Shown here one piece after another: positions 6,632 to 25,118 of a stretch of DNA of 64,000 bases. Made by a program: the position numbers and the translations under genes. Origin of the DNA: Amphritea japonica ATCC BAA-1530 (GTDB taxonomy: Bacteria > Pseudomonadota > Gammaproteobacteria > Pseudomonadales > Balneatricaceae); contig NZ_AP014545.1 of the NCBI RefSeq assembly GCF_016592435.1, positions 1-64,000 of the forward strand. The letters run 5' to 3'. Every line of letters starts with the position of its first letter. The stretch's first letter is position 1. Under the pieces are notes generated by a model that was not told the origin of the DNA, did not search any database, and was given only the letters and a program-made list of their open reading frames with translations.

Positions 6632-6640
6632 TGGGAAATA

Positions 6641-6668
6641 AAAAAGCAGCCAGTGGCTGCTTTTTTTT
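6641..6668 (+). terminator. Rho-independent terminator inside the left end
   Basis: GCAGCC and GGCTGC pair around a 3-nt loop and are followed by eight T. It closely resembles the terminator outside the right end (24252-24273), so gyrB transcription can still end properly despite the insertion. It may also stop gyrB transcripts from entering the element. Confidence 0.85.
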
Positions 6669-6686
6669 GTGTGAAAAGTTTTGAAA

Positions 6687-8314: not shown

Positions 8315-8323
8315 GTTCATCAC

Positions 8324-8959
8324 TTCCCTTTTCTGGCCCGTATTTTTAGGCGCAATGCATTTTGAGTTTACAAGGTATTGTTATTAAAAGCATGATGATT
8401 GTAATGGCGAAGAAAGCTTACAGAGCTTTGTTAAGACTGTGGTGGGTCAATGGAGTCAGATTCGTTGGTTTCAAGTAGGAATTGCTGTTTTGCTAACTAC
8501 ACAAGTTCTAAATCAGCACTAATGCTTTCTTGTGTGAAATGACTTTCCACTTTTGTGAAAAAATAAATCATTTTAAATCAAGTGGTTAGGTATGTGAAAA
8601 ATACAAGTCGCACGTTTGTCGTCTTTTCTCACTATCTAAACTCTTCCTAATAAGGTCAAAACTAGGCGATACGCTAGTACGACTGAAGCCTCGCTAGAAA
8701 TTTCAATTCTTCCTATCTCCTATCTGTATTATGCCGATGACATTAGATTAGCGGCTTTCCTTCATTACAAAATATAACTGTATATTTCTTAATCAAAAAA
8801 GATCATAGAGTAACCTGAATGACAGATGGAAATATTTTTGTTTTTCTAATATTGCAATATTAACATATTGATTTTAATAAAGTTTTTTGATTTTATTTTT
8901 GATTTTTGAAGATTTTGGATATAAGTTTACTGAAGTTAGAAAATTATTCAGGTAGGCAC
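8324..8959. other. Long AT-rich intergenic region inside transposon
   Basis: About 640 bp between the divergent HipA-like operon and the XRE regulator. I see no convincing coding frame, tRNA or repeat. Divergent promoters for both sides are expected here. The stretch 8760-8930 is especially AT-rich. Confidence 0.5.
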
Positions 8960-9334
8960 ATGACCCCATTTAGCTCTTATCTCGAATCATTGCGCAGAAG
9001 CCGCAGAATTAAGCAGAAGGACTTCGCAAATGAAGTTGGCGTTAGCTCCTGCTATATAAGTGCTATTGAGCTTGGCCGCAAGAACCCCCCTTCTCATGAC
9101 ATCATCGAGTCCATGATTAAAGCTTTGCAACTAAGTTCTAAAGAAGCCTCTTTGTTGTGGGACTATGCAGAGCAATCTATTCGAGTACTACGCATACCTG
9201 AAGACCTGCCATTAGAGGAATACGCTGTCGTTAATGATCTTAAGCGCTCTTTTGGTTCACTATCTAAAGAGCAAATTACAATTATTCGAGCGACGCTATC
9301 TATACGTAGCTTTCAGCAAGAGCAAATTCAATAG
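8960..9334 (+). CDS. XRE-family helix-turn-helix regulator
   Basis: About 124-aa Cro/CI-type regulator. The HTH lies near the N-terminus (LRRSRRIKQKDFANEVGVS, then SAIELGRKNPPS), followed by a helical tail. An upstream in-frame start at 8906 adds 18 residues, but the ATG at 8960 has an AGGTAGG ribosome site and begins right before the HTH. It is placed 223 bp upstream of tnsA, reading toward it. XRE regulators controlling tns operons are known in some Tn7-like elements, so it plausibly represses the transposase operon, perhaps through the palindrome at 9482-9497. Confidence 0.85.
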   Translation: MTPFSSYLESLRRSRRIKQKDFANEVGVSSCYISAIELGRKNPPSHDIIESMIKALQLSSKEASLLWDYAEQSIRVLRIPEDLPLEEYAVVNDLKRSFGSLSKEQITIIRATLSIRSFQQEQIQ

Positions 9335-9481
9335 GATTCGGGAGGATAAACATATGTAAAAAAACGGACGAAGCTAATGCTTGGCCCGCTTTTGTAAGGT
9401 ATTAGATACCTCGACTGGTAATCAAAGTATCTATTCCTTCCGGCAGTTCGTCAAGCTCCAGTACTCATACAACATTTTTCA

Positions 9482-9497
9482 TTACCGATATCGGTAA
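9482..9497. promoter_or_regulatory. 16-bp perfect palindrome, candidate operator
   Basis: TTACCGATATCGGTAA is a perfect palindrome 60 bp upstream of tnsA and 150 bp downstream of the XRE gene. Its size and position suit a dimeric regulator controlling tnsABC-tniQ. No binding data; inferred from symmetry and position. Confidence 0.5.
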
Positions 9498-9557
9498 GGA
9501 TTTAGTATGCCAAAAATTCAGAATGTCGTGCCATTTGGCCAGCGATAAGGAGCCTCT

Positions 9558-10286
9558 ATGCCTCAAAAAACGAGACTTAAAAAGGCGCATCAACGATCTA
9601 GAGAAGCCGTTACTCGCTCAAGAATGACAGTAAGAGGGCGTTTCCCATCAGCGAAGATGGGAAGAATGGTTGATTGGGAGTCGCAACTTGAAAGGCGAGC
9701 TTGCTATCGATTTGAGTTCTCTCCTGCTGTCTTATCTTTCAAAGAGCAACCCCAGCCTATTCGATTTCGAATTGGTGACCAATTGGCGAAGTATACGCCA
9801 GATTTTGAGTTGGAATTGGTCAATGGGGAGACCTGGTTTGTTGAGATAAAACCTCTGGATCATCTACGGAAGCCAGAACTAGCAGAGCGTCTTTCATTGG
9901 CTGCAGGTTGGTTCAAGCGCAATGGATATAAATTCATTGTGATAACGGATGAAGAACTGATTCATCCTGACTTGGAATCAAATCTAGCCTTTCTAAGACA
10001 CTTTCAAACTCATGAGATTAATGAGTCCACGGTTAGTCATGTCTGTCATTGGTTTGATCATATAGACGCCCCCACCCTCGGTGGGTTGCACGAGTACTTT
10101 GGCGACAAGGCAACTGCTTATGCTCTTTTATCTCAGAACCTGATTAGCACCGACCTTTCTGATCCCTTCAATCTCAATTCGGAATTGTTTCTTCTTGAGG
10201 AGAATAGTTATGCAACGCTTTTATTTTCATACAGGACAGCACCTGACTTTAGACTCTGTACCGTACATGATGCAGAGAATTCTTGA
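9558..10286 (+). CDS. tnsA: Transposon endonuclease TnsA
   Basis: TnsA makes the 5'-strand nicks at the transposon ends, so that together with TnsB the element is cut out rather than copied. This 242-aa protein has the restriction-endonuclease-like core: E41/E45 in DWESQLERR, D82 in YTPDFELEL and E96-x-K98 in WFVEIKPL. The C-terminal half should contact TnsC. AAGGAG stands before the ATG. tnsB overlaps its 3' end by 77 bp. All catalytic positions look intact. Confidence 0.93.
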   Translation: MPQKTRLKKAHQRSREAVTRSRMTVRGRFPSAKMGRMVDWESQLERRACYRFEFSPAVLSFKEQPQPIRFRIGDQLAKYTPDFELELVNGETWFVEIKPLDHLRKPELAERLSLAAGWFKRNGYKFIVITDEELIHPDLESNLAFLRHFQTHEINESTVSHVCHWFDHIDAPTLGGLHEYFGDKATAYALLSQNLISTDLSDPFNLNSELFLLEENSYATLLFSYRTAPDFRLCTVHDAENS

Positions 10287-12162
10287 AAACAAAGATGTGA
10301 TTTTACAAAGAAAGTCAGATCTTGGATTAATTACTCGGTCCAGAAATGAGCTTATAGAAGCCTTTGGCGCTGGTGCGCTTAAATTTATTATCAAAGATGA
10401 ATTGGGTCTTGAATCTAAAGCCAACAAACCTGACAAACTTAAACCCCTGGATTCATTTACTGAAGAGCAGCAACGAGAGGCTTTACGGAAGCAGTCTTAT
10501 ATTAATCTTGCCGTTAAAGCTCTTGGAGAGGAGCCCTGCCATCAGAAGTTAAAGAATTACATCGACCTATTTGCGGATCGATTGCAAGACTCCAACCCCC
10601 CAAGCTCGATCACACTATATCGTTGGTGGGTTACCTGGATTAAATCAGGGAAAGATATTATTTCACTGGTTACTCGCTCGGAAGGACGAGCTTCTGTGTA
10701 TTTAAAAGAATACCGTGAAGTTATTTATGAAGTGATTGATGAGGTGTTAATGACACCTGAGTATGGTTCAAGGCAGGATGCCTTTGATCTATTTAAAGTG
10801 AAGCTGAATGAACTGAATTCGATTCGCTTAGATCCATTAGATATGCCCTCTAGAGCTACATTCTATCGTTTATTGAAAAGTTTGATAGATCCCCAAGAGT
10901 TGACTGCAGCACGGCATGGAAAGCGAGCAGCTGAAATGGAGTTTCGGGTTAGCGGGAAAGGTGTTACATCAACTCGAATATTGGAACGTGTAGAGATTGA
11001 TCATACACCGATAGATCTTATCGTTGTGGATGAACGTATTGGAGAAGCGGTTGGTCGTCCTACGTTAACCATGATTCTAGATCATTACTCAAGAATGCCC
11101 CTAGGGTTTTATTTAGGATTTGAACCCCCTTCTTCTGTTGCTGTTATGAGAGCTATCAGACACGCCATCATGCCCAAAAGTTATGTTAACGATGATTATC
11201 CAGACTTTGAAAATGGTTGGCCTGCCTATGGGGTTTTTTGGGTGCTGGTCTGTGATAACGGTTCTGAATTCCACGATCATCAGCTCCAACGAATGGCAAA
11301 TGAGCTGAATATTGAGCTGTTCTACTGTCCTAAGCAGCACCCCTATTACAAAGGAGCTGTTGAACGTTTTCTGGGCACTTTAAATAGAGCGGTGTGTCAC
11401 TCTGCTTCAGGTTCCACCCGGTCTAATATTCAGCAAAGGGGGAATTATAATTCAGCCCAAGAAGCCTCAATTACGCTGGAAAAACTCAGACGTCTCATTC
11501 ACGACTGGATCATCAATATCTACAGCCGTGAGTATCATGAAGGCTTAGGAGATAGTCCGGTGAATGTCTGGACGAAAGGCCTTCAGCATGTAGAGCCGAC
11601 TTTGCCTCTTAGTCGTGAACGCTTGGATCTTACCTTGACCAAGGAGTTTGAAAGAACGATCAATCATGAGGGGGTTAGTCTTTTCAGACTTAAATATAAC
11701 TCCCATGAGCTTGGCCTTCTGCGGCGTCAATTAACAGAGAAAGCGTTAGTAAAGGTCAGAATTGATCCTGAGAACTTAGGCCAGGTGTGGGCCTATGACG
11801 AGCGAGAAGGCTCGTTCTTCTCAGTCCCCTGCATCGACCCGGAATATGCGGAAGGTCTTAGTCAGCGCCAACACGAATATATTCTTAAGCATAGAACGAA
11901 CACCCGTAAGGCTTTAGATACTGATGAATTGCTGGAGAGAAAGGTTAGGTTTAAGCGGGATGTTCGAGAGGCGTCTAAAGCAAAAGGACTTCGCAAGCGG
12001 ACTAAAGCGGCACAGCTCTCACAACTGCCTATTGTGGATGTCGATCAGCTCTCAGTCCCTAAAAGAGAAGAACAATTACCTCTTATTGATATTGATGAAA
12101 TGGATGAGTTTGATATGGATGAATTGGACGAGCTTGATATGGATTGGAGGGCTGAAAAATGA
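10210..12162 (+). CDS. tnsB: DDE transposase TnsB
   Basis: Retroviral-integrase-superfamily transposase that joins the 3' ends to target DNA. The DDE triad is visible as D264 (VEIDHTPID), D349 (LVCDNGSEF) and E385 (GAVERFLG), with 35 residues between the last two. Helical DNA-binding domains precede it and a beta-barrel-like and tail region follows, ending in an acidic Asp/Glu/Met repeat. The longer reading frame opens with TTG at 10195, but GAGGAG at 10197-10202 sits exactly before the ATG at 10210, which I take as the start (650 aa). It overlaps tnsA by 77 bp and tnsC by 4 bp. Confidence 0.95.
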   Translation: MQRFYFHTGQHLTLDSVPYMMQRILENKDVILQRKSDLGLITRSRNELIEAFGAGALKFIIKDELGLESKANKPDKLKPLDSFTEEQQREALRKQSYINLAVKALGEEPCHQKLKNYIDLFADRLQDSNPPSSITLYRWWVTWIKSGKDIISLVTRSEGRASVYLKEYREVIYEVIDEVLMTPEYGSRQDAFDLFKVKLNELNSIRLDPLDMPSRATFYRLLKSLIDPQELTAARHGKRAAEMEFRVSGKGVTSTRILERVEIDHTPIDLIVVDERIGEAVGRPTLTMILDHYSRMPLGFYLGFEPPSSVAVMRAIRHAIMPKSYVNDDYPDFENGWPAYGVFWVLVCDNGSEFHDHQLQRMANELNIELFYCPKQHPYYKGAVERFLGTLNRAVCHSASGSTRSNIQQRGNYNSAQEASITLEKLRRLIHDWIINIYSREYHEGLGDSPVNVWTKGLQHVEPTLPLSRERLDLTLTKEFERTINHEGVSLFRLKYNSHELGLLRRQLTEKALVKVRIDPENLGQVWAYDEREGSFFSVPCIDPEYAEGLSQRQHEYILKHRTNTRKALDTDELLERKVRFKRDVREASKAKGLRKRTKAAQLSQLPIVDVDQLSVPKREEQLPLIDIDEMDEFDMDELDELDMDWRAEK

Positions 12163-13103
12163 ATAAAGAGCAATTAGCGGTGCTTTCAAAATTTAATCAT
12201 CGCGTCATCAAACATCCTCAGTTTGAATCAGCATTTAGCAAGATCGAAGAGGCTTATCAATTGAATGATGAGATCGGTTTTCAGCTGAACCTCATTTGCA
12301 TCGGAATGTCAGGAACAGGCAAGTCGACCCTGAAACGAAGGCTCGTAAAAAAATACCCAGAGTCATATGCGAAGGACCGAAAAATCGTACCAGTACTGGT
12401 GATTGATACTCCCTCCCTTCCAACAGTTAAAAATATGGCTGAAGGCATGCTATTTCAGTTAGGAGATCCTGCGTTTTTCAAGGGATCCGCGGTTGATAAA
12501 ACCGGTAGGATTCTGAATTACATCAAGAGCTGCCAGGTCAGGCTAATTATTTTTGATGAGCTCCAGCATTTTATTGATCAGGGAAGTCGCGCTGCGCCAC
12601 GGCAAGTATCAGATTGGTTAAAAACGTTAATTGATCAGTCCGGCTCATCAGCTGTTCTCATGGGGTTAGAGCAAAGTGAGTACATACTTAGGATAAATGA
12701 GCAGTTGCGCCGCAGGTTCAGTCGAAGAGTGGACCTTAAACCCTTCTCAATTGCATGCAGTAGTAGCTTTCGGGACTTCACCAAAGTGATCAAAGGGCTC
12801 TATCGTACTGCCGATATGCCCTTGTCGGGGAAGCTTAGCCAGGACCTTTTCAAGCGTTGGCACTTTGCTACGAATGGCATCATGGCGTATATGGTTAACC
12901 TGATTATTTCAGCGTATCAGGTCGCACAACGAGAAGGCTATGCTTCTATTCATCAAGAGTGTTTAGAGCAAGCCTTTATCGAATCAATCTGGTCTGAGGG
13001 AGAAGGAAGACTTAACCCGTTCAGTAAAAGCTTCAATTTCAATCGGCTCATAAAGCCAGGTATGCCCTTCCATAAGATTGAAACGAAGGAGCTGGCTATA
13101 TGA
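12159..13103 (+). CDS. tnsC: AAA+ transposition regulator TnsC
   Basis: ATPase that links the target selector TniQ to the transposase and gives target immunity. Walker A GMSGTGKST lies at residues 49-57 and Walker B LIIFDELQHF near 129-138; a sensor-like FSRRVDLKPFS and arginine-rich RRRFSRR follow. Length 314 aa is shorter than Tn7 TnsC (555 aa) and closer to the TniB-size proteins of many Tn7-like elements. Start and stop overlap the neighbours by ATGA, indicating tight coupling with tnsB and tniQ. Confidence 0.93.
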   Translation: MNKEQLAVLSKFNHRVIKHPQFESAFSKIEEAYQLNDEIGFQLNLICIGMSGTGKSTLKRRLVKKYPESYAKDRKIVPVLVIDTPSLPTVKNMAEGMLFQLGDPAFFKGSAVDKTGRILNYIKSCQVRLIIFDELQHFIDQGSRAAPRQVSDWLKTLIDQSGSSAVLMGLEQSEYILRINEQLRRRFSRRVDLKPFSIACSSSFRDFTKVIKGLYRTADMPLSGKLSQDLFKRWHFATNGIMAYMVNLIISAYQVAQREGYASIHQECLEQAFIESIWSEGEGRLNPFSKSFNFNRLIKPGMPFHKIETKELAI

Positions 13104-14977
13104 CGGGACTGATTCAACCAATTTGCTATCCACAGCCTTATGATGATGAATCGCCGGTTGGCTATTTGATACGGGTCTGTCAGGCCAATAAATTTAATAA
13201 CATTCGATGGCTTTACCCTGAGGAAGGTAAGTTATTCTCGTTGCAGCCAACAGAAATTTTAGAGCAGCTAGTAAGCTCTCCCTGGTCAGGATTTCAGAAC
13301 GTAAAAGATGGTATCTCACCCTATTGCTCTTTAAGCCCAGTCGATCTCAATATTACAGTGCTAAGGTACTGTCCTCTGTGCTTAAAGGAAGAGCCCTACT
13401 TTCGGGTTCAATGGCATCTGAAATGCACTACGGTATGTGTAAAGCATCAGTGTTGGCTGGTAGATCGATGTTTTGAGTGTAAGGAGCCATTGAAATATGG
13501 GCGCTTGGCATCGGTCGAAAACTGTCATTGTCGTTATTCATTGTTCGACACACCGATCCAAGAAATACCCAATAATGTGATTAGGTTTCAACAGTTCATA
13601 GATGGTGTAGACACCTATTTTGAAGGAGGCAATTACTGGCTTAGTGAGAGTTTAAATCCATCTGATTTTAATTTAAGAAGACGGGTTCAGCTGGTGCATG
13701 GGTTCTCTCTGTGGCAACCAGTTGAAGACAACTCACTTGCCAGGACTGGGACTTTCTCTGGTTTTAGTGATATTGAAACGGCTAAGGCGTATGTGCTTTC
13801 AGCCGCAGATACGTTTTTTACAGATACAGATGGTTTTACCCCCTTTCTTTATCACCTACATCAGCAGGTTTATGAAAATCAGGAGGATGGAGACAAGCTA
13901 TTTAAACGATTCTACAAATACTTCTTTCATCAGATTGGAGTTGCCATTGATCCTCTTTATCAGGCAGTAGAGCAGTACGTTAATCATAACTGGCAATACT
14001 ATCTCTCCCAAAAAAACTCTCTCTTTACTGAGTCAATGATAGATAGACACATGTGGCTTCCATTGCAAACTGCAAGCAACAGATTTGATATCACTAAGAG
14101 TGAGCTTAAGCGAGCCGTTGCTAAAGGGGCTGTGAGATCTAAAGAAAATTACTATTTTGATTCTGAGCGAACGCTTACATTGGTATACCTGCCTGATGTC
14201 TTGAAATACCTCGATATTAACGAGAACCTTGTTAATGCGGTGACTGCCGCCGGTATATTAGGTGTCACCAAAAAGCAGTTTTATCAGTTATTGGATAGTA
14301 GTTATATCGATGGAGAGGCTCCCTCCAAAAAGAGCGGCTCGTCTTGGCGTGTTAACAGGAGTGATCTCAAGGATTTGTTAGAGAGGTTTACAAAAGGTCA
14401 TCCTGTTCTGGATGATCAGTATATCCCTCTGCCGGATGCTATACGAAAAATTGGAAATAGAATTGAAAGCCCATTTATTCGTTTACTGCAGGCTATTGAA
14501 GGTGGTGATATCTCTACAAGGGTAAATCCTCAACTCGTTGGTTTGAGAAGCTTATGTTTATCAGAAGTGGAGTTAGCCGATTGGTATTCAGCAAAAACGG
14601 TCGAAGATAGGTTCTATAGTGTTCAAGAATTGGCCAAAGAGATGCAGGTGTTGCCAGGCTTGATAACCAGTTTGTTGGGTATTGGGGCATTGTCTTCTTA
14701 CTATGTTCCAGATTTGTCGGGAAAGAGGATTACAATACGCTCAGTACAGCAGTTTCAGGAGAAATACGTGATCCTTTCCAAGCTTGCAAAGTGTAGTGGT
14801 GTCTCCACGCATCGAATGAAGTCGATAGTCGAGTCACTTGGTATTCAGTCGATTGATGAAGGGGTATCGGATAATGCCAAGTTTTTAAGCCGTATTTACT
14901 ACAGACACGAAATGCTGGAAAAGAAGGAAATAGCGCCTTTGGTTTCTTCCATGAAGGACTGGGAATACATGGGGTAG
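13100..14977 (+). CDS. tniQ: TniQ/TnsD target-selection protein
   Basis: Target selector that should bind the attachment site and recruit TnsC. The N-terminal TniQ domain has a zinc-finger set C91, C94, C109, C113, H116, C124, C127, C142, C144. The long C-terminal region contains at least two helix-turn-helix-like segments (around AAGILGVTKKQFYQLLDSS and LAKCSGVSTHRMKSIVESL). At 625 aa it is of the large TnsD type that recognises a fixed DNA site rather than the short TniQ of CRISPR-guided elements. Insertion just behind gyrB suggests the gyrB 3' end as its target. The last 60 residues have a decayed homologue at 22285-22456. Confidence 0.92.
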   Translation: MTGLIQPICYPQPYDDESPVGYLIRVCQANKFNNIRWLYPEEGKLFSLQPTEILEQLVSSPWSGFQNVKDGISPYCSLSPVDLNITVLRYCPLCLKEEPYFRVQWHLKCTTVCVKHQCWLVDRCFECKEPLKYGRLASVENCHCRYSLFDTPIQEIPNNVIRFQQFIDGVDTYFEGGNYWLSESLNPSDFNLRRRVQLVHGFSLWQPVEDNSLARTGTFSGFSDIETAKAYVLSAADTFFTDTDGFTPFLYHLHQQVYENQEDGDKLFKRFYKYFFHQIGVAIDPLYQAVEQYVNHNWQYYLSQKNSLFTESMIDRHMWLPLQTASNRFDITKSELKRAVAKGAVRSKENYYFDSERTLTLVYLPDVLKYLDINENLVNAVTAAGILGVTKKQFYQLLDSSYIDGEAPSKKSGSSWRVNRSDLKDLLERFTKGHPVLDDQYIPLPDAIRKIGNRIESPFIRLLQAIEGGDISTRVNPQLVGLRSLCLSEVELADWYSAKTVEDRFYSVQELAKEMQVLPGLITSLLGIGALSSYYVPDLSGKRITIRSVQQFQEKYVILSKLAKCSGVSTHRMKSIVESLGIQSIDEGVSDNAKFLSRIYYRHEMLEKKEIAPLVSSMKDWEYMG

Positions 14978-15378
14978 AGAAAGGGATGCCCTATTCTTCC
15001 AACTTATGGTCCAGACTGAACCTTTTGGATGAAAGCGCGTATTTTCCTGAACGCCCATGAACTGTTTGTTAAATGAAGAATTTTGGTTATATACTGCTTA
15101 TATCAGCTAGATGACTCTACGAGTTGATCAATCCAGCTTCCAACTGGTTTGATAGCAAGAAGCCGCCCTCTCGGGGCGGCTTTTTTGTTCCTAAAGTTAG
15201 TGGCTTGTGATGGGCTAGTCGGGTTTAGAGGCGTATCAGCGTGAAAGATATTTTAGCCTTGTTGGTTCTGGAGGGACTGGGGTAAATCATCATTGATGGC
15301 CGCTTAGCTCCTACTAAAAGAGGAAAGATTACCCTCCTCTCTCTCCGTTAAACAACAAAAATCCGCCGGATATGACTG
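14978..15378. other. Intergenic region downstream of tniQ
   Basis: Some 400 bp between tniQ and the convergent minus-strand cassette. It contains a strong terminator at 15162-15186. The 180 bp between the tniQ stop and the terminator could encode a small RNA, but I see nothing specific. No CRISPR-like repeat is present. Confidence 0.5.
15162..15186 (+). terminator. Rho-independent terminator of tns operon
   Basis: GCCGCCC pairs with GGGCGGC around a 5-nt loop, followed by six T. It closes the tnsABC-tniQ transcript about 180 bp after tniQ. Confidence 0.88.
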
Positions 15379-16299
15379 TTAGTTAGTGGCTTCTTCAAGC
15401 TGAGGACTATTTTCTATCTGTTCGTTTATAGGTGAGTTAGATTGCTTAATCGAGCCACTTCGTAGGATTCTGTCCCTTCTAGCCTTGATCAAAGCTTCAT
15501 ATAGCTGAGGTCTTGCTTTGATTGTGTGAATCATACTGATAAGTAATCTACTAATAAGAATGGCAACAAAAAAGTATAGGGTTCCTATATACCAGAAGAT
15601 CTTTTGGTCTTTTATTGTCTGATTAAAGTATGCAATGCTTTCAGGGTCCTCAAACGAGCTACAAATTATTTTAACGCTTTCTATCGAAAGTCCTGTTGTA
15701 TTGACTACCCCGACTTGCCCTAGTGACTCACAAGCGGATTTATCAAACGCCCACTCCTTGCTTTCCTCTAAAATAATGAGATAGCTGATACTAGAGAAGC
15801 CGTTCTTATTCAAAGAAACCCACTGAGACTCGTTTTTAAGCTTTACGATTGCACCATTTGAGGAAGCTATAAAAAGTAATGGCTGAATGCTTAAAGCTAT
15901 TCCTAAAAAAACAACTCCAGGGAACACTGTTATCCAAGGGTTAATTTTCTTAACTTTTCTCAGTTGTGAGTCGAACCCTCCTCTCATCTTGGAGAAAAAT
16001 TTAATATTCAATTCGTTTTTTTGCACTCGTTGCTGAATCCAATGAATCTCTTTGAGTGATTTGGTCTGCATATGAAATAAGGCATTGAATCGCTCTATAT
16101 CTGTTCGCTCTTGCCAGAACTTTTTGAGCTTACGGTCGCTGAACTCTGATCCACCTATAAGTAGGGCGTACAGCCTATTCATGAGGGCGTATGAACTTCC
16201 AGATTTAAATTGAAAATATCCTGCTATAGCAAGCAGAAAGAGGCCCGTCACTAACCAGGCGGGCAAACTTAAAAATGCATTTAGAGGTGAGTCATCCAT
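15379..16299 (-). CDS. Unknown membrane protein (cargo)
   Basis: A 306-aa protein with three likely transmembrane segments: near the N-terminus (LPAWLVTGLFLLAIAGYF), mid-protein (WITVFPGVVFLGIALSI) and near residue 240-265 (WYIGTLYFFVAILISRLL). A soluble stretch of about 100 residues lies between the second and third segments. Basic C-terminal tail. I do not recognise the family. It is the last of three minus-strand cargo genes; 114 bp separate it from the 258-aa gene upstream. A membrane partner of a defence module is possible but only inferred from context. Confidence 0.6.
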   Translation of the reverse strand: MDDSPLNAFLSLPAWLVTGLFLLAIAGYFQFKSGSSYALMNRLYALLIGGSEFSDRKLKKFWQERTDIERFNALFHMQTKSLKEIHWIQQRVQKNELNIKFFSKMRGGFDSQLRKVKKINPWITVFPGVVFLGIALSIQPLLFIASSNGAIVKLKNESQWVSLNKNGFSSISYLIILEESKEWAFDKSACESLGQVGVVNTTGLSIESVKIICSSFEDPESIAYFNQTIKDQKIFWYIGTLYFFVAILISRLLISMIHTIKARPQLYEALIKARRDRILRSGSIKQSNSPINEQIENSPQLEEATN

Positions 16300-16413
16300 G
16301 ATATTTCTTCCGTGAAAAGTAATCGAATCAGGTTCAATAGCTTTAAATAATATAGATTTTTTACTTTTCTATTACATGAGCGGCCACTTATATGGCACAA
16401 GTCCAGAATGTTC

Positions 16414-17190
16414 TTACTTGCTTATAGTGCGACTATTTAGATCCTTGAGAATAGCACTCTCAAGCCAGTTCGGCACAATGAAGTCTTGAGATTTAAGTAT
16501 TGTTTTGGGCACGTCTTCCCAGAATCCTGTAATAGCGCTTGAAAATTCCTCTACATGAGCGTCCGTTATCGAGAGATGTGTATGATCCAAAAAGTCCAGT
16601 TCGAAAAAATCATCCCCAAACGTACCGTAAGGATTACGTAGGTATTCGGGGTATTTTTTCTTTAGTTCTTCCAGTGATTTACCTTTTCCATGTTTATAGA
16701 TATTAATCACCAAGCGGCAAGCATCAAGCTTTCGGAAATAACTTTTACTTTGAATATTCCAGCCTAAGGACTTAAATAGTTCAGCTATTTTCCCAAAATC
16801 TACGCTCCAGATTTTAGCCTCAGTATGGTTTCCATGATGCCAGTGATTCACCTCTGTAATCATCCAGTCACGGAATTGCTTATCCCACTCATGGTACATT
16901 CCTGCCACAACGCTTAAGCGCGTAGTGTTATGCATACCAGAAAGAAGTTGATAGAACTCGATCTCAATATCATGTGCTTGTTCATAGAAACTACCAGGGT
17001 CGTGTCGGTCAGGATCAAACCTATGATTGTTATCTTCTAGCCAGTGCTCAGCCGCTTTTCTTGCTTCAGTTTCTATATCTTTAAATTGAGCTAACAATCG
17101 CTTGTTAGCCTGGGTTACATAAAACTCATGGACGGCAATGAAGGATTTTCGGCTAGGCTCCCACATTTGAAATAGAACAAACTGCTTCAT
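16414..17190 (-). CDS. Unknown cargo protein, possibly HEPN-like
   Basis: A 258-aa soluble, mostly helical protein. Near residue 155-170 it has RLVINIYKHGKGKSLEELK, which looks like the N-x-x-KH-G element seen in several HEPN-like abortive-infection proteins; this is a motif-level resemblance only. Trp/His-rich in the middle (VNHWHHGNH). It starts 4 bp after the stop of the interrupted gene upstream (17194-18353) and is surely cotranscribed with it. Function unknown; RNase activity would be the prediction if the HEPN reading is right. Confidence 0.6.
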   Translation of the reverse strand: MKQFVLFQMWEPSRKSFIAVHEFYVTQANKRLLAQFKDIETEARKAAEHWLEDNNHRFDPDRHDPGSFYEQAHDIEIEFYQLLSGMHNTTRLSVVAGMYHEWDKQFRDWMITEVNHWHHGNHTEAKIWSVDFGKIAELFKSLGWNIQSKSYFRKLDACRLVINIYKHGKGKSLEELKKKYPEYLRNPYGTFGDDFFELDFLDHTHLSITDAHVEEFSSAITGFWEDVPKTILKSQDFIVPNWLESAILKDLNSRTISK

Positions 17191-17193
17191 AAA

Positions 17194-18353
17194 CTAATTC
17201 TCAGGCCAATTTTGGGGTAGGTCTAATAGGCAACCCAAACAGAACCCCTCCTCGAAGACTAATTCATCCTCTGAATTGGCTTTACAATGTGGAAATGCAT
17301 CTAGATATGATGGAACTTGGTAGTTAGCCCAAGGATTCATGAATAATCCTTGTTTTAGTTTTGCAATACACCAAGGAGAGTTTCCCTTAAAGAGCCATGC
17401 TCCGCTGACTCTGGTGTATTGAGGACCTCCGAAAGAGAGCCAAGCACCATTCGGCTTTCTTCCCCTCCCTACAACATCACCGGAATTCCTATCGATGGTT
17501 ATTGTTTCATCTCCAAAAAGCGCACTAATAGCCGTTAACTTATCAACATGCTTTGAATCCACACCAATAGCGATAATTAATGGCTTACTCAATTCACCAT
17601 ATTTATTTCCTTTTGTTTTTATGGCCTTCTTAATTTGCCGTCCAGTATCTAAAGGTCGTACTTCTGGCATGTTCATACCAATCAATCTGTCACCGGTACC
17701 TCTACTTTCTTCATTCTTGGGAATAGCTAGGAATTCCACTTCCCAACCATCATGCTGCCATTCTAATTTGGGTAATGTAGTTACACCATTAAGCTCGAAT
17801 TCGCGAGAGACCTCATCCGGGTTTAACGTCTCTAGCCATTCGGAAACTGAAGCGTTCAGATTTCTACTGCTTGGTCTGGAGTTAGGGTGGCCGTCAGCAT
17901 CAATTGCCAAAAAGAAATTAGGTGATTCTAGTGTATCTAATGTATCTAAAACGGCATTTTTGTTAGCTTCTGCACCAGGCACTAAATCCTGCTCAGTCAC
18001 GACAATTGCTTCCAAATAAAATTCGTCCCCTTCTGGTGTGGTGACAAGGAAGTCAGGCCTTTTTGGTGAGCCGTTATTGAGTACAGGGTGAGGAATTAGA
18101 GAGCATCCTAGGGCTTTCATGGATGCAAAAAGAATCATCTCGAATGCAGCAGACTTAAAGTTTATATTCCTATTGGACTGTATCCTTGAGCGAATATCTT
18201 TTTTTCTTCGTCCGGGAATTCCTCATAGATTCTTTCAAGGAAGTCTCTTACTTTTTTGGCTTCTTCTGTTCCTGAGCGGTCTAAGTAATGAAACTCAAGC
18301 TCAGAACGGCTTTTGGGGCCTAGGAATTCACGCTCTTTTTCTTCGAACAGCAC
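17194..18353 (-). pseudogene. Interrupted cargo gene with -1 frame change at A AAA AAG
   Basis: Two open frames make one protein of about 385 aa. The first (start GTG 18353 with AAGGAA upstream) covers 63 codons and stops at 18162; the second is open through 17194. Near 18202-18210 the reading frame passes over the heptamer A AAA AAG in the correct phase, and a -1 slip there continues as DIRSRIQSNRNINFKSAAFEM into the second frame, giving an uninterrupted, sensible protein. This is either programmed frameshifting, a lost A in a run of eight, or a sequencing error. After the junction RPDFLVTTPEGDEFYLEA resembles a PD-(D/E)xK nuclease core with the Lys replaced; tentative. It leads the minus-strand cassette. 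Confidence 0.65.
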
Positions 18354-18626
18354 GGATTAGTTCCTTTTCCTGACGTTCAGCTGATGAGGCGTACATAATT
18401 GAAATAGCCTATAGATGCTGTAAATAGTAATTCTAACCTACTCATGATGTAAGTTAAGAATGTACATACATCGCCTGCAGTTCGATAGAGACGTCCTGTA
18501 ATAGCTCTACGCGGGTAAATTCAATTCTAATTCAAGTCTAGTTTAGATACGTAATTCTTAGTTTGACGTAAAGTCTTACTTTGCGTTATAGTGTTTATTA
18601 TGTTTTTATTTTTGTATGGAGTCTTT

Positions 18627-19562
18627 ATGGAATTTCGAGCACCTTCAGTTGCTACAGAACAAACCGCACGTGCTGCAAAGTACCTCACGAAAAATCTTGA
18701 AGATCCAAATGCAGGAAGAGCAGTTTTAGATACTCTTATAAACGAGTTAGGAAACGTTGTTGAGAACTTTCCAGATTGGCACCCAATATTGACTATTCCT
18801 GCGAAAGACTCAACTAAAGAGGCTTGTTCGTTAAATGGACTGGATGCTTATAAAACTATTGATCACACAGTGATGTTTGTTCGTGGGTTTGTGACATGCC
18901 CATATAGTGAAGATAAAGCAGACCGTTTGGTGGAAGCTGTCGAGCAGTTAGAAGGGCTTCGTGCTTACCGGCTACATCAACCTTTATATGCTGACAGTGC
19001 TTACCCAGTGGTGGTAGAAGCATATATTGTTCAGTTAGAAGCGGATGGTACTATTCGTAGCCGTGATGCTTTAATTTGGTTTTCACAGCACTTACTTAAT
19101 GATCCTTCGAATTCAGAAGTTGCCGAAACTTGGTGGAATATTCGTTCTCTGATTTTGGGTCATCCCCATGGATCTCGCTCTTCTTTATTTGTGAATCAGC
19201 ACTCAGGTGCTCATATGCGAAAAATTCTAGAAGCTTTCAATAACAGCGGTATGTTTGGCCCAATAAAAGAATCTTCACTCGAAATGTTATCAAAAAAGAA
19301 GAGAGACACAATTTGTGAGGCTCTCATTCGAGCTGCTGTGAGCAGTTGGGATAAGCATAGCGAAAAGTTTGATTTTGAATTACGTGGTGAAACTTGCAAG
19401 GTTAATATTCGTGATACGTGGGGTGATGGTCAGGAATTGTCAGTTCAAGTTGTAATTGGTGATCATGATTTATATGTCTCGGGTTTTTTCTATCTACGAG
19501 AAGATCGACCTACATATACAGAACCTTTGGGAAAGCGCGCTTTAGCTGAAAAGTTCTTGTAA
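18627..19562 (+). CDS. Unknown cargo protein upstream of Septu-like pair
   Basis: A soluble protein of 311 aa from the ATG at 18627, which has GGAG upstream; an ATG at 18591 in the same frame would add a hydrophobic 12-residue leader and looks less likely. No family recognised. No catalytic motif stands out; it has conserved-looking HPHGSRSSLF and RDTWGDGQEL segments. Directly after the stop, another frame reads KAEQQAVKRLRKAGLF, a segment repeated in inverted orientation at 22958-23007, so the true C-terminus may once have been longer. It reads toward the ATPase/HNH pair 111 bp downstream and may be a regulator or third component. Confidence 0.6.
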   Translation: MEFRAPSVATEQTARAAKYLTKNLEDPNAGRAVLDTLINELGNVVENFPDWHPILTIPAKDSTKEACSLNGLDAYKTIDHTVMFVRGFVTCPYSEDKADRLVEAVEQLEGLRAYRLHQPLYADSAYPVVVEAYIVQLEADGTIRSRDALIWFSQHLLNDPSNSEVAETWWNIRSLILGHPHGSRSSLFVNQHSGAHMRKILEAFNNSGMFGPIKESSLEMLSKKKRDTICEALIRAAVSSWDKHSEKFDFELRGETCKVNIRDTWGDGQELSVQVVIGDHDLYVSGFFYLREDRPTYTEPLGKRALAEKFL

Positions 19563-19564
19563 AA

Positions 19565-19614
19565 GCAGAACAACAAGCAGTAAAGCGTCTACGAAAAGCT
19601 GGTCTATTCACCGC
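19565..19614 (+). repeat. 50-bp imperfect inverted repeat, copy 1
   Basis: About four-fifths identical to the reverse complement of 22958-23007. The two copies bracket the ATPase/HNH pair, the tniQ relic and a small membrane gene. In one frame both copies encode QQ-x-VKR-x-RKAG-x-F, so they may be remnants of the same gene 3' end. Confidence 0.6.
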
Positions 19615-19673
19615 TTGCTTTAAAAGCTGCGCAGTATGATTGTGTTAAGACTAATCTTAGGAACAATTGATCT

Positions 19674-21368
19674 TTGAAAATTATATATACACCAAACCTT
19701 CCTTGGGGAGCTGAACCCCCAGCTATTTCTGGAGAGAAAGATTACTTGTCTCTCAGTGGAAATAACTGGGATGACTTTGGTTACAGAACAACACTTAATG
19801 CTAGGATCTTCTTTGATGGAGAAGCCATTGATCTTGATTTTAGTATCAAGATGCTGATAGATGATGTCGAATATACACGAGAGCACCTAAATAACCTCTG
19901 CAAAGAAGGATGGAATGGTAGATTTCCTATTCCTGATCAGAAGTATGTATCTGTTCCAACAGACATTGATTTCTATAAGACAATTCATTCTCGCCTTTCT
20001 TCAGAAGAAATGTCTAAGTTCTTAGCTCTTCTAGGTGACGCCGGCTATTTGGTGGAGGTTAAAAAAGATAAGAGTTCAACTAGACTGACTCAGTTAGATA
20101 TTTTTAATACTTCTCTACTTCGTGGGAGTGGAAGTAACAAATGCTTTCAGGATGGTTGGCGGATATTAGAGCATCAGGATAGCTCGATTCGAGACTTCAA
20201 GTTCCGCCTTAATACACAAAGTGGTGGTGTTTGCGATATTCCTTTTAGCTTTGAGTCAGACCTTCTACCCTATGATATCAATGTACTGATTGGTCCCAAT
20301 GGTATCGGTAAATCATACTGTTTAAGGTCACTGGTTGAATACTGGTTACAAATTGATAAAGGGGCTCCAGATCAGCTTAGCGAGCTTGGGTATGATCCTT
20401 TTGACCATAGACCTAATATCAGTCGTCTTATCCTTGTTTCATATAGTCCGTTTGAAGAGTTCAGCTTAGGGCTTAAGAAAAAAGATAAGGTGCTTGATAC
20501 AAGTGCTTATCGATATTTTGGCTTTCGTAAGAAGTTAAAAAATGGGCGTATTGGCATTAGTCGAGGCTTACCAAAACTAAACGCAAGCGAATCGCTGCTT
20601 GATGCAATTTATGAAGACCATAAGTATCAAGAAGAAAGTTGGTGGATAAACAAGTTTGACACCTGTCTCAAAGTTCTCAAAAAGGCTGTAGGATTTGATG
20701 AAATCTACTTAAAGTTAGATAGCAATCAAAACTTATCAGCACTAAAAAAGTATATAAAAGATATTAAAGGATCAAGCTATCTTATCCTCGATAGCTCTCT
20801 CCCTGCAATCGTCTTCAAGCAAGAGTTGATTGACTGTTGTGATATGCAATCGGGAGCTTATTTCATTAAAAATAAGAAGTTATGCGACCTTAGTTCTGGT
20901 CAGCTGCTGTTCTCTTATATTGTAATTAACGTTATCGGATCAATCAGAGAAAATTCACTAGTTGTTATCGATGAGCCGGAGCTATTCCTCCATCCAACTC
21001 TTGAGATAGAGTTTTTATCTCTATTAAAATCTGTTTTAAAGCCATTCAAGTCTAAAGCAATACTAGCTACTCATTCATTGTCTGTTGTTCGCGAAGTACC
21101 TTCAAACTGTGTACATATTTTCAGAGAAGGCAAAGATGGCTTTGATGTGATTCCTCCTCCTTTTGAGACTTTTGGAGGGAGTGTCCAACGAATTTCTGCA
21201 TATGTGTTCGGTGATCGATCCGTCTCAAAACCGTTTGATGAATGGCTTGAAAAGCAGATGGCGGGCGGTAAGCAGGCTGATACTTTAATTGATCAGCTTG
21301 GAGAAGAGATTAATGAAGAGCTTATGATGCGGATTCATCGTATATCAAGGAGGTTAAATGGTAGCTAA
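19674..21368 (+). CDS. Septu-like AAA/ABC-type ATPase (PtuA-like)
   Basis: SMC/OLD-like ATPase of 564 aa. Walker A IGPNGIGKS lies at residues 206-214, the ABC signature LSSGQ at 406-410, Walker B VVIDEPELFLHP near 430-441 and the switch histidine in ATHS near 467. No TOPRIM domain follows, unlike OLD nucleases. The next gene is an HNH protein overlapping by 11 bp; this pairing is that of Septu (PtuA/PtuB) anti-phage systems and of some retron effectors, where the ATPase regulates the nuclease. No reverse transcriptase is nearby, so a stand-alone Septu-like system is the best reading. It starts with TTG at 19674; AGGAA lies somewhat far upstream. Confidence 0.8.
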   Translation: MKIIYTPNLPWGAEPPAISGEKDYLSLSGNNWDDFGYRTTLNARIFFDGEAIDLDFSIKMLIDDVEYTREHLNNLCKEGWNGRFPIPDQKYVSVPTDIDFYKTIHSRLSSEEMSKFLALLGDAGYLVEVKKDKSSTRLTQLDIFNTSLLRGSGSNKCFQDGWRILEHQDSSIRDFKFRLNTQSGGVCDIPFSFESDLLPYDINVLIGPNGIGKSYCLRSLVEYWLQIDKGAPDQLSELGYDPFDHRPNISRLILVSYSPFEEFSLGLKKKDKVLDTSAYRYFGFRKKLKNGRIGISRGLPKLNASESLLDAIYEDHKYQEESWWINKFDTCLKVLKKAVGFDEIYLKLDSNQNLSALKKYIKDIKGSSYLILDSSLPAIVFKQELIDCCDMQSGAYFIKNKKLCDLSSGQLLFSYIVINVIGSIRENSLVVIDEPELFLHPTLEIEFLSLLKSVLKPFKSKAILATHSLSVVREVPSNCVHIFREGKDGFDVIPPPFETFGGSVQRISAYVFGDRSVSKPFDEWLEKQMAGGKQADTLIDQLGEEINEELMMRIHRISRRLNGS

Positions 21369-22284
21369 ATTGTTACCTCCAGCTCATGACTCGGCAGAAG
21401 TTGTTCGAGACTCAATCGCGAATAGGAGACAACATAGAGATTTCTTCAGAGCTCTTCAAGAGGATTGGTTGGCCCTTATTGATGATTATAATCGCCTCTC
21501 AGGTGACCCAACGGCTATAGCACCCATAGATTTGTCTCAATATATCAGTGCTGAGAGGCTACAAAATGAAGCCGCTAGTGAGCCAGGAAGAGGAGAAAGC
21601 GATGATCCAGCAGAGAGGTTATATCAAAGGCGTAAAAAATCTCTGATAAATCTGTATTCGGCAGCAGCTGGAACAAATTTGCATACGACTTTAGATGCTA
21701 TGAGAAGGAGGCATGGGCTTAGATTCTGTCCTTCATGTGGAGAACCCGGAAAGCCAGGAACTCTAGACCACTATTTACCGAAAACTGAGTATCCCGAGTT
21801 TTCAATTGTATTAGAAAATTTGACACCAATGTGTGAGGCTTGCCAAGAAAAAAAGGGTACATCTGCCGTCGATGAGGAGGGAAATAAGCTCTTTATTCAT
21901 CCCTATTATGATCCAATTGAAGATGCTTCTCTTAGTCTTGTGATATCTGAACCATATGAAAGCCCTACTTCGTTTAATGTAGAGGTTCATCAAGATGTCC
22001 CTGAGCAAATAAGATCTCTATTTGAAAGGCATTTGTCTGAGATTAATTTTAGAGAAAGGTTCGAAGAGTTTTGTATAGATGAGTACTCGGACCTGCTTTC
22101 ACTTTTTACAGCAGAAAGAGCTGGAGATAATCCAGATAGTGCAAGGCGAATTCTACCAAGGTTTTTAATTAAAAGTGCAGTGCAATCACACAACCGCTGG
22201 GAAGCTATATTCTACCGTGGTGTTCTATCTAACCCAGATTTGCTGGATTACTTAGATAACGCTGATTTGCCAGGCTTGTTTTGA
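21358..22284 (+). CDS. HNH nuclease (PtuB-like)
   Basis: A 308-aa protein with a zinc-stabilised HNH fold: C124-x2-C127, the catalytic DH at 137-138, N154 and C159-x2-C162. It overlaps the ATPase gene by 11 bp, so the two are translationally coupled. In Septu systems the HNH partner degrades nucleic acid once the ATPase partner is released or triggered by phage infection. The gene's stop codon abuts the decayed tniQ fragment at 22285, so this module was probably joined to foreign transposon DNA exactly at its 3' end. Confidence 0.8.
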   Translation: MVAKLLPPAHDSAEVVRDSIANRRQHRDFFRALQEDWLALIDDYNRLSGDPTAIAPIDLSQYISAERLQNEAASEPGRGESDDPAERLYQRRKKSLINLYSAAAGTNLHTTLDAMRRRHGLRFCPSCGEPGKPGTLDHYLPKTEYPEFSIVLENLTPMCEACQEKKGTSAVDEEGNKLFIHPYYDPIEDASLSLVISEPYESPTSFNVEVHQDVPEQIRSLFERHLSEINFRERFEEFCIDEYSDLLSLFTAERAGDNPDSARRILPRFLIKSAVQSHNRWEAIFYRGVLSNPDLLDYLDNADLPGLF

Positions 22285-22456
22285 ATCGAACTGACCCACA
22301 GGCAAGCATTATCCGATCTACTTAATATGAATCGACCATGAACTACCTAAAGAAGAGCGCTACATGAATCGTATTTTCTACAGGTATGACCTAGTTAATG
22401 TGAAGGAGATTTCGGCTTTGATAGGAGCTATGGGAGATTGGGATTATATGGTTTAG
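22285..22456 (+). pseudogene. Relic of a second tniQ (C-terminal 55 codons)
   Basis: Starting right after the HNH stop codon, the frame reads IELTHRQALSDLLNMN, then with a one-base shift IDHELPKEERYMNRIFYR and on to EISALIGAMGDWDYMV and a stop. The intact TniQ ends with VSTHRMKSIVESLGIQSID, FLSRIYYRHEML and EIAPLVSSMKDWEYMG in the same order. The relic is clearly homologous but divergent, so it comes from a related element rather than a recent duplication of 13100-14977. It lacks the rest of the gene and is not functional. Confidence 0.8.
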
Positions 22457-22553
22457 AGGGTGGATGCTCAGTAGAGTTGTGTTGTAATGGTTTGATAAAT
22501 AAGAAAATATTTTAACATTAAAATTTTCAGGTAATTAAAGGAAGATTGCTGTT

Positions 22554-22964
22554 GTGAGAAAAGGAAAGTTCTTCAAGGCTCTAATAGAAGAAATAAAGTC
22601 CCCGTCAGGGGAAACAATGATATCACTTCTTATAACAGTGGCTTCAGTAGCTATCCCTGCTTTGGTTACAGTGTTTACACAAAATAAATCTATAACTGAT
22701 AGTTTTTCTTCTATGACCATCACTCTTGCAACTTTTTGCATAGTGGTCGTTGCATGGAGGCCAAAGGCTTGGTGCTCGATAGCTGAGTATTTAGAAGCAT
22801 TGTTACTTCTGTTAATCAGCTTGTCTTGGTTGATCATTATTGGCTATTTTGATTTGTTTCTTGAGTTATCTTGGTTTGTGTATCTAGCAGCATTACATTC
22901 AACTCTTAATGTTATCTACGTTCATCAAGTAGTTAAGTATGGAACTAGTACAGATAAGGAATGA
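22554..22964 (+). CDS. Small unknown membrane protein (cargo)
   Basis: A 136-aa protein starting GTG, with four predicted transmembrane segments (around residues 25-42, 52-67, 80-98 and 102-120) and short basic or charged ends. No family recognised. It lies between the tniQ relic and a convergent membrane-protein gene near the right transposon end. The 269 bp upstream include the relic and otherwise nothing I can name. Confidence 0.5.
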   Translation: MRKGKFFKALIEEIKSPSGETMISLLITVASVAIPALVTVFTQNKSITDSFSSMTITLATFCIVVVAWRPKAWCSIAEYLEALLLLLISLSWLIIIGYFDLFLELSWFVYLAALHSTLNVIYVHQVVKYGTSTDKE

Positions 22965-23007
22965 ATCGACCAGCTTTTCGTTGACGTTTTACTACTTGTT
23001 GATCTGT
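22958..23007 (-). repeat. 50-bp imperfect inverted repeat, copy 2
   Basis: Reverse-complement partner of 19565-19614. On the minus strand it encodes QQVVKRQRKAGRF followed by a stop a few codons later. It overlaps the last codons of the 136-aa gene. Confidence 0.6.
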
Positions 23008-23054
23008 TGTTTTCAAAGTCGATTCAGGCCTTGAAATCTAAATAGCGATATTAG

Positions 23055-23969
23055 TTATGCGCTATGTATGGCTTTGACCCCTATTTTTAGGCGCCATCGT
23101 TCAATTGAATAGCGAAGTGATGCGAATAATGCTATTCCTATATAGCTCAAAATTACGATAGAAGAGCTTGAAAGTACTTCTTGAGGATAGAAAGACAGTA
23201 ATGCTAGGATGCTGGCTCCAGTGTTTGATATGAGTAAAAAGATCACTCTGGGCATCATATATTTCTTTTTTCTTCTACTTACAGTATTAGCCCACTTTTC
23301 TTCTAATCGGTTCTTATGTTCCATATTCTGTGCTTTGTAAGCGCAGGCAATATGCTTTTTAAATGAAATACATACTATTGGGTAGAATGTGCCAAAAAAG
23401 ATACAAATTGCTGAAACTGTTGATACTGTCTGATGGTAATCAGTATGTGGCGCTAGGAAATAGGAAAGCCCTCCTGCGAAAAAAATAAAGTTAAAGGCAA
23501 AGAAAAGATAAGGTAGCTCTTTGATCAAGCTTCCGTATTTAATCTGATTTTTTCCCTTAGCTAAGGCATAGACGTCATCCAATTTGGGGTGTGATTTGAT
23601 ACGCAAAGTCCGCATACCTGCAACATGTTTATAGAGCATATGGATCAATGAAACCTTGTGAGCTATTACAGATAAGAAGCCCCAACCCATGAAAAAGACT
23701 ACGAATGAGTATACGGTGCCAATCGTTGCTGCTTGTGCGGTTAATTTTTGGTCACCTGAAAAGAAAGCAGCTATAGCAAATAGACCTGTTATGGATAATA
23801 GATAGGTCTTAACGTACCACTGGCATTGAGAATGCTGGTTTGCTATTGAGGTCGTCGACTCTTCAATTTCCTTTTCGATTACATTTTCCATAAGTTGTCT
23901 CGTTGTATGAGGGGTCGTCATAGTGATTATTGTCAGGTTGATGCTGCCTGATAGTGATTGATAAAACAA
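23055..23969 (-). CDS. Unknown multi-pass membrane protein (cargo)
   Basis: A 304-aa protein with about six hydrophobic segments (two near residues 50-95, two near 150-200 and two near 245-285) and a charged N-terminal region rich in Glu. Start uncertain: in-frame ATGs at 23921 and 23891 give shorter forms, and none has a strong ribosome site. No family recognised. It is the gene nearest the right transposon end, which begins about 110 bp upstream. Confidence 0.55.
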   Translation of the reverse strand: MFYQSLSGSINLTIITMTTPHTTRQLMENVIEKEIEESTTSIANQHSQCQWYVKTYLLSITGLFAIAAFFSGDQKLTAQAATIGTVYSFVVFFMGWGFLSVIAHKVSLIHMLYKHVAGMRTLRIKSHPKLDDVYALAKGKNQIKYGSLIKELPYLFFAFNFIFFAGGLSYFLAPHTDYHQTVSTVSAICIFFGTFYPIVCISFKKHIACAYKAQNMEHKNRLEEKWANTVSRRKKKYMMPRVIFLLISNTGASILALLSFYPQEVLSSSSIVILSYIGIALFASLRYSIERWRLKIGVKAIHSA

Positions 23970-24080
23970 TTAAACAGTCTCTCATCGACTTAATAAATAT
24001 AATTAACAAATGATTATGAGGGTAATCCTCCCCTATCCTATGGAGGGTTTGGATGATGAGGCAATTATGGCCTTAAGGTA

Positions 24081-24212
24081 TTTCACCTTAAGTGAGAGTT
24101 TACTCGGATATTTCATTCTATATGAGAAATTGGGGCTAAGGTCGTTTCTCATATAGAATGAAACACCGTATGTACCGGGGCTTTCTCATTTCACGTCAAA
24201 TGAGAAACGACA
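24081..24212 (-). repeat. Right transposon end with four binding-like repeats
   Basis: Copies of the end motif lie at 24081-24098, 24111-24129, 24145-24163 (this one in the opposite orientation) and 24189-24207, followed by the terminal CGACA. The left end has three copies; such asymmetry between ends is usual in the Tn7 family. Confidence 0.75.
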
Positions 24213-24217
24213 TGTCG
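24213..24217. repeat. Target-site duplication, right copy (TGTCG)
   Basis: Matches 6560-6564 and directly follows the right terminus. Confidence 0.8.
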
Positions 24218-24246
24218 AATCTCATTTAGACTTAAATGAGAAATTT
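24213..24246. other. Flanking palindrome that mimics the transposon ends
   Basis: The host-side flank begins with 18 bases identical to the element's left end (TGTCGAATCTCATTTAGA) and continues CTTAAATGAGAAA, which resembles the right end. TCTCATTT and AAATGAGA form a palindrome around AGACTT. It may be the scar of an earlier related element or the native post-gyrB sequence. Confidence 0.65.
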
Positions 24247-24251
24247 AAAAA

Positions 24252-24273
24252 GCAGCCTGAGGGCTGCTTTTTT
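24252..24273 (+). terminator. Rho-independent terminator (ancestral gyrB terminator?)
   Basis: GCAGCC pairs with GGCTGC around TGAG, followed by six T. Before the insertion it would have stood about 40 bp after gyrB. A near copy lies inside the left end at 6641-6668. Confidence 0.85.
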
Positions 24274-24799
24274 ATTGTCACAAATTTGTGCTCGTAAAGA
24301 ATTTTGAATGACCTCTGGTTTTACCAGACACTTAATTTTGACATTAATGGCTCATCTCTAAAAAGAGGCAGGCATATTCCGGGTTATCATATTTTTTGCT
24401 GATTGATTCAGTCACACCCGAATTTATCCTGTTATTCAGAGAGCGTGTATTTTGAAATTTCAGCGCTCTTCTCTGAGGCGTCTGTCAGAGCGCATGGTAA
24501 ATGTTGCTTGTTATGCATTCAACTGGGCTGGGTATGTATAAAAAGCCGCTCAGAAGCTCTCTTAGGAGGTCGTTTTTTGGCTGAATCGGTAAAAATAAGT
24601 CTATCCAGGCAAAGGCAGAGAATAGTTTTTAAGTTTTAATTGTTGCGCTGCGCCTTTTTGAGCGTTGGTTGAGTTCGTGTATTTGTGAAGCTGTTTGCAG
24701 TGGTGCTTCTTTTTACACTGCTATGGATTTTTTTTCGAAGCGGATGCTCGCTGCTTTTTTGTGTCTTCTTTGTCGCTCGTCGGATGTTTTTTATAAATT
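24274..24799. other. Intergenic region after the transposon
   Basis: About 525 bp without a gene I can support. Plus-strand open frames exist, but their Cys/Ser/Phe-rich translations look random. No repeat or RNA gene recognised. Confidence 0.45.
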
Positions 24800-25105
24800 T
24801 CAGCGAGGGCTATTTGAGGTTTTTACTAGCCCATTCTGGGATAAGACGCCGTGTATTTTTATCGCAGTTTTCTTAAGTCGGTTTATCTCTCCTAATGTCG
24901 GATTATGCCCTGTTGCCAGTAGAGTCTCTTTCTCTTCCAGTTCCATATCCAGATAATCCATCAGTTTTTTTGAACAGCCAGTACAAGGGCCATTACACAT
25001 TTCGGCAACAGGGGTGTCGAATGGAATGCCTGAGCGAATGTCCTTTATCAGGTTTCTCATCGCTTCTTTTGTGTCCGGTTTAGATTCCATAGTTGAATGT
25101 TTCAC
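24800..25105 (-). CDS. Conserved-looking small Cys protein of unknown function
   Basis: A 101-aa acidic, helical protein with a CNGPC-x2-C cluster near residue 37-44 that could bind a metal. I do not recognise a named family. The start is either GTG at 25105, with AGG eight bases upstream, or ATG at 25090. The GTG start would lie inside the parS-like site 25098-25113. It is the last minus-strand gene of the gmhB side, reading toward the transposon. Confidence 0.55.
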   Translation of the reverse strand: MKHSTMESKPDTKEAMRNLIKDIRSGIPFDTPVAEMCNGPCTGCSKKLMDYLDMELEEKETLLATGHNPTLGEINRLKKTAIKIHGVLSQNGLVKTSNSPR

Positions 25106-25113
25106 GTGGAACG
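25098..25113. promoter_or_regulatory. parS-like site 1
   Basis: TGTTTCACGTGGAACG matches the ParB-binding consensus TGTTTCACGTGAAACA at 14 of 16 positions and keeps the CACGTG core. Without the transposon it would lie about 7 kb from dnaA, a normal place for parS. Confidence 0.65.
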
Positions 25114-25118
25114 CCTGG

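Follow-up and report, generated by a model that had tools for sequence, protein, structure and literature searches.

Why should a transposon with an intact target selector gene also hold the tail of a second one? The question is raised by the first 64,000 nucleotides of contig NZ_AP014545.1 of Amphritea japonica ATCC BAA-1530 (the whole stretch of DNA analysed, hereafter the window), where a sequence-only reading had described a decayed second tniQ inside the cargo of a Tn7-like element. The genes ahead of the element are dnaA, dnaN, recF and gyrB, of which dnaA and gyrB were identified by Pfam and the other two from their order and size. The element spans 6565–24212, is bounded by arrays of TnsB sites and by TGTCG...CGACA termini, and has TGTCG as its target site duplication (TSD). 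From its genes, its ends, the 5-bp TSD and the fixed site, the whole of this segment is predicted to be a Tn7-like transposon.

The order inside the element is a 289-aa gene, a HipA-like kinase gene, Xre, tnsA, tnsB, tnsC, tniQ, cargo, the tniQ relic and two orphan genes; all features lie on the plus strand unless stated otherwise. The 289-aa gene and the HipA-like kinase gene form the left-arm cargo (6687–8323, minus strand), which resembles that of genome G332 in DNA sequence, and an Xre-type regulator (8906–9334; HTH_31), found in relatives too, lies ahead of tnsA. Among the proteins of the single operon-like transposition block are the TnsA endonuclease (9558–10286; PF08722), the TnsB transposase (10195–12162; PF09299, rve), TnsC, a TniB-type AAA+ ATPase (12159–13103; PF05621, 5e-28) with its nearest relative in genome G438, and an intact resident TniQ of 625 aa with an A-type C-terminus (13100–14977; PF06527, E=4e-12; PADLOC TniQ_IF, 1.7e-20).

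By Tn7 convention the tnsA-side end is the right end; the names gyrB-proximal and distal are used here. A site scan placed the gyrB-proximal (tnsA-side) end at 6565–6632, beginning 11 nt after the gyrB stop with TGTCG, which opens a tight array of three TnsB-like sites (6571, ~6593 and 6614), and the distal end at 24080–24212, with four spaced sites (24080, 24110, 24146 and 24188) and the CGACA terminus at 24208–24212. The gyrB-proximal end also includes, at 6640–6666, a duplicate of the hairpin that terminates gyrB, so that an element inserting between gyrB and the original hairpin would leave gyrB terminated. The TSD copies lie at 6560–6564 and 24213–24217 (ATTGT in the same-genus genome G016); the pentamer in the window equals the element's own terminus and therefore discriminates poorly. 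The second copy opens a segment (24213–24277) with a remnant of an older gyrB-proximal end and a gyrB-type terminator. A terminator copy in the proximal end, with a second one after the distal end, was likewise seen in G016, in G438 and at the internal junction of G315 (Neptuniibacter pectenicola). Beyond this, the stretch from the element to gmhB (24280–25105) is mostly non-coding; 103 nt of it are 79% like G367, and it possibly contains the remains of an older insertion. The interval 8324–24080 was scanned for a second, internal pair of transposon ends, and one lone site was found, in the ATPase gene, a count at shuffle level. A 23-nt direct repeat (8334/23075) was rejected as the element ends, the TnsB-site arrays being located elsewhere.

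A paralogue of gyrB, parE, is already known as a TnsD site. TnsD-type homing in the Tn7 family is exemplified by Tn7 itself at glmS and by the parE-targeting TnsD/TniQ of some I-F3 CASTs (PMC11406308). The window element resembles these systems in the tnsA, tnsB, tnsC, tniQ order, the TGT...ACA ends, the 5-bp TSD and an insertion point shortly past an essential gene, and differs from them in its gyrB site, its lack of CRISPR genes and the gyrB terminator copy in its own end. A literature search of partial coverage found no paper naming gyrB as a Tn7-like site.

The relic occupies 22331–22456 and corresponds to the 3' end (residues ~585–625) of a truncated B-type tniQ, as judged by tblastn, shuffles and identities. 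It consists of 41 codons in a single open frame (22331–22453, translated as IDHELPKEERYMNRIFYRYDLVNVKEISALIGAMGDWDYMV) without internal lesion, closed by TAG at 22454–22456. In a six-frame tblastn search of its own genome the relic matched the resident TniQ C-terminus with 36% identity over 39 aa (E=8e-7), and the reverse search against TniQ gave E=2e-4; the match is colinear with the final 41 residues of the intact protein. None of 500 dinucleotide shuffles equalled the relic's score (observed 99, shuffle maximum 47). That a colinear TniQ C-terminus immediately follows the HNH gene is thereby confirmed. Its description as some 55 codons with one frame change, aligning with the last 60 residues, has to be shortened to one frame and the last 41, because the 46-nt spacer that separates the relic from the HNH gene (22285–22330), read in its other frame, was equalled by 90 of 500 shuffles and had no DNA match to the tniQ of G332, G315 or G438. 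On the shuffles and the DNA alignment a frame-shifted upstream extension was ruled out, and the left junction of the relic is placed by the sequence comparisons at about 22330. On the other side, DNA similarity to the G332 relic (blastn; 22331–22475, 145 nt, 83.6%) stops ~20 nt past the stop codon, which defines a shared 3' flank of about 20 nt (22457–22475; blastn and alignment). The TniQ core (PF06527, zinc fingers) is absent while the C-terminal homology is present, so that the relic is a fragment of a tniQ gene and encodes no working TniQ.

To which kind of TniQ does the tail belong? The closest homologs are a tniQ pseudogene of G332 (88% aa identity over 41 aa in the bacterial family search), a tniQ pseudogene of G315 (89% over 36 aa) and the intact 627-aa TniQ of G438 (78%); the G332 relic itself shows 66% identity to the C-terminal 111 residues of the latter. 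Both pseudogenes, like the window relic, have lost the 5' part of tniQ and retained the 3' end, the remnant of G332 being longer (from about residue 330), as is that of G315 (from about 440), whose copy is without the last residues. Both adjoin the 289-aa gene (a fragment in G315), as in the window's element, and that of G332 also shares the site after gyrB and a retained HipA-like gene; the genes to the right of the two pseudogenes differ from the window's. In G438, by contrast with the 41 codons of the window, the B-type tniQ is complete and stands beside tnsC in an element inserted 11 nt after gyrB. At this locus (L036, G438:C16, 7305–11334) an IS3-family element takes the place of tnsAB, tnsC and the B-type tniQ being intact. 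A search of the plasmid collection with the relic gave no match, a scan of genome contigs with the longer relic recovered Neptuniibacter pectenicola alone, and a class-level search of 369 genomes gave no relic match outside its own genome.

Two C-terminal types of TniQ can be distinguished: type A, in the window and G016, and type B, in G438 and the G332 and G315 relics. A tree of the C-terminal ~130 residues keeps the two types apart, and grouping of the window TniQ with that of G438 was rejected for this part (AU p = 0.0003). In a sliding comparison the change between types falls near TniQ residue 490–500, past which identity to the G315 relic drops from about 50% to about 31% for the window TniQ and rises from about 50% to about 70% for the G438 TniQ. 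The window relic is assigned to type B by identity (78–89%, versus 36% to the resident TniQ), its 41 residues being too short for placement by a tree of their own. Since this type is common to other gyrB-homing elements, the relic is a trace of a second Tn7-like element that had a selector of its own, as the sequence-only reading had proposed. That reading had asked for the clade and attachment site of the relic; by identity the type is B, and every relative whose position could be established is at gyrB, with no sign of a different site.

Elements directly after gyrB were found in G016, G438 and G332, the insertion lying 10–11 nt past the gyrB stop in the window, G016 and G438. Genomes G446, G367 and G427 display the gmhB-glyS side of the gyrB interval, and the G315 contig is without gyrB but has element ends of the same type. 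Past the distal end, the window, G016, G438 and G315 each retain remnants of a further gyrB-proximal end, and in G315 a tandem pair of complete tnsABC-tniQ sets is accompanied by a B-type relic. Abutting ends and tandem copies show that elements pile up at the gyrB site, and through such stacking related selectors become neighbours. In G332 a decayed element has intact left-arm genes, a broken Xre, no tnsABC, a broken tniQ and a recognisable distal end, which shows how a stacked copy dies. At the locus of the tandem copies in G315 (L011/L012, G315:C149:1-40000) the contig starts with one more distal end, whose terminus directly adjoins an internal fragment of the 289-aa gene, a junction that resembles the outcome of an adjacent deletion. 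Two related elements (L040 and L041, in G350 and G427) have two tandem tniQ frames, a short match to the N-terminus preceding a longer one.

The remainder of the element is of mixed affinity. Its left arm is 82–86% identical to that of G332 at the DNA level, while gyrB is 69% identical; compared with the same-genus G016 the left arm is 73% identical, while gyrB is 80%. TnsC is 81% identical (aa) to that of the B-type G438 versus 69–70% to that of G016, and the resident TniQ is 59% identical to the A-type G016 protein versus 52% to that of G438. With a G332-like left arm and a TnsC nearest to G438, the element is a mosaic: by these comparisons the left arm, tnsC and the relic lean to B-type elements and the resident tniQ the other way. 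The TnsC tree, considered as proof of recombination, does not by itself separate the groupings (AU p 0.16–0.17). Either two stacked elements collapsed into one, or the tniQ of a B-type element was replaced by an A-type tniQ plus cargo. As no further tniQ or tns piece of the second element was found in 14978–25118, the route of exchange is not directly readable. The DNA shared with the closest B-type relative amounts to no more than 145 nt, and the matching flanking TSDs are most simply explained if the mosaic predated the present insertion.

We favour, with a probability of roughly 0.6, the reading that the relic is the scar of the tniQ of a second, B-type gyrB-homing element, left by recombination or deletion in a mosaic. 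Tn7-like elements insert repeatedly beside gyrB and displace older ones outward, as the abutting ends and tandem copies show; a mosaic may then arise by recombination or deletion among related elements, whether adjacent or newly arrived. That of the window would have retained both transposon ends intact together with a full tnsABC-tniQ set, the second tniQ surviving as a 41-codon scar that separates the HNH gene from the cargo gene after it.

A serious alternative, if a clearly less probable one, is that the selector was replaced in place, an A-type tniQ with cargo taking over the 5' part of tniQ-B in a B-type element, so that the relic would be the tail of the element's own former selector. 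The leaning of left arm and TnsC towards G332 and G438, with TniQ alone nearer to A-type G016, is what such a replacement would give, and grouping of the window TniQ with G438 was rejected for residues 1–500 as well (AU p 0.024). Against this, the TnsC tree separates no groupings, TniQ residues 1–130 are about equally close to the A and B types, and the incoming A-type tniQ would be just 59% identical to its nearest known relative. A related and more speculative proposal, to which we give little weight, is that gyrB-homing TniQs swap their C-terminal ~130 residues, with the break near 490–500 and the attachment site unchanged, orphan tails being the scars of such swaps.

The cargo around the relic was studied for a further source. 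Directly to its left lies a Septu-like defence pair, PDC-M01A/M01B (19674–22284; PADLOC E=3e-230 and 6.5e-100), in which the AAA ATPase and HNH gene (21358–22284) expected of a PDC-M01 / Septu-like pair were both present. To its right are the 136-aa ORF (22554–22964), without relatives in the 117 genomes of the family search, and the last cargo gene, a 304-aa ORF (23055–23969, minus strand), without relatives in the 392 genomes of the order search. With DNA similarity to the G332 relic confined to 22331–22475, these two orphan genes give no support to the earlier idea that the right half of the element came from the other transposon; the idea of selector exchange is supported in part, the claim for the whole right half is not. 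A 50-nt inverted repeat, 86% complementary (19561–19610 / 22962–23011), encloses the ATPase/HNH pair, the relic and the 136-aa gene, and its 19-nt core, TGAATCGACCAGCTTTTCG, has one further copy far off in the genome (G000:C1:1410908). The motif TGAATCGA has all four of its window copies within 750 nt, at the HNH stop (22282), the left junction of the relic (22328), the stop of the 136-aa gene (22962; plus strand) and just beyond (23026; minus strand).

Could a single defence block, with the tniQ tail between the ATPase/HNH pair and the 136-aa gene, have been inserted from another Tn7-like element? The exact flanking by the inverted repeat, the distant copy of its core and the motif at both gene ends and the relic's left junction would suit such a cassette. 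We consider this unlikely, since the inverted repeat has no associated recombinase or transposase, searches gave nothing related to the block, and the nearest relative of the HNH protein is 38% identical. As a cassette site the motif is unconvincing and may be due to chance, several other 8-mers clustering equally tightly in the window.

The age of the relic bears on whether it has a function. Comparison of the window and G332 relics gave dN 0.07 and dS about 1.06 (dN/dS about 0.07), a ratio resembling that of the living left-arm genes. As this is the ratio of working genes, most of the divergence predates the truncation, which is fairly recent; with 41 codons free of lesions, the term decayed is too strong. 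That the relic was retained as a small product, a peptide of 30–41 residues or an RNA acting on TnsC or the gyrB site, is very improbable: the 3' part is open in all three relics and dN/dS is low, but the low ratio is inherited from the stage of the full tniQ, third-position bias is also seen further upstream, where these pseudogenes are broken, and the fragment is without a TniQ core, the G315 copy being also without the last residues. An AlphaFold model of the resident TniQ (mean pLDDT 67, 6 sequences), too weak for a fold search and offering a rough picture only, shows repeated helix-strand modules in the C-terminal half. In this low-confidence model the residues matching the relic are the end of the last C-terminal module; being that and no TniQ core, the relic most likely does nothing. 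Chance similarity, or membership of another family, has short length and nothing else in its favour and is refuted by the shuffles and by the 78–89% identity to TniQ tails.

The mechanism behind the relic is an ordinary one. In TniQ/TnsD proteins the C-terminal extensions are modular and variable, and elements trade selectors with one another (PMC10293859, PMC11406308); compared with the published exchanges, the window presents an in-situ scar between elements sharing one site. The relic is a record of mixing between Tn7-like elements competing for a single homing site. Through it a small transposon family was recognised, whose members insert immediately past gyrB and have an extra copy of the gyrB terminator in the transposon end. 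With two selector C-terminal types at one unchanged site, what the TniQ C-terminus reads becomes testable.
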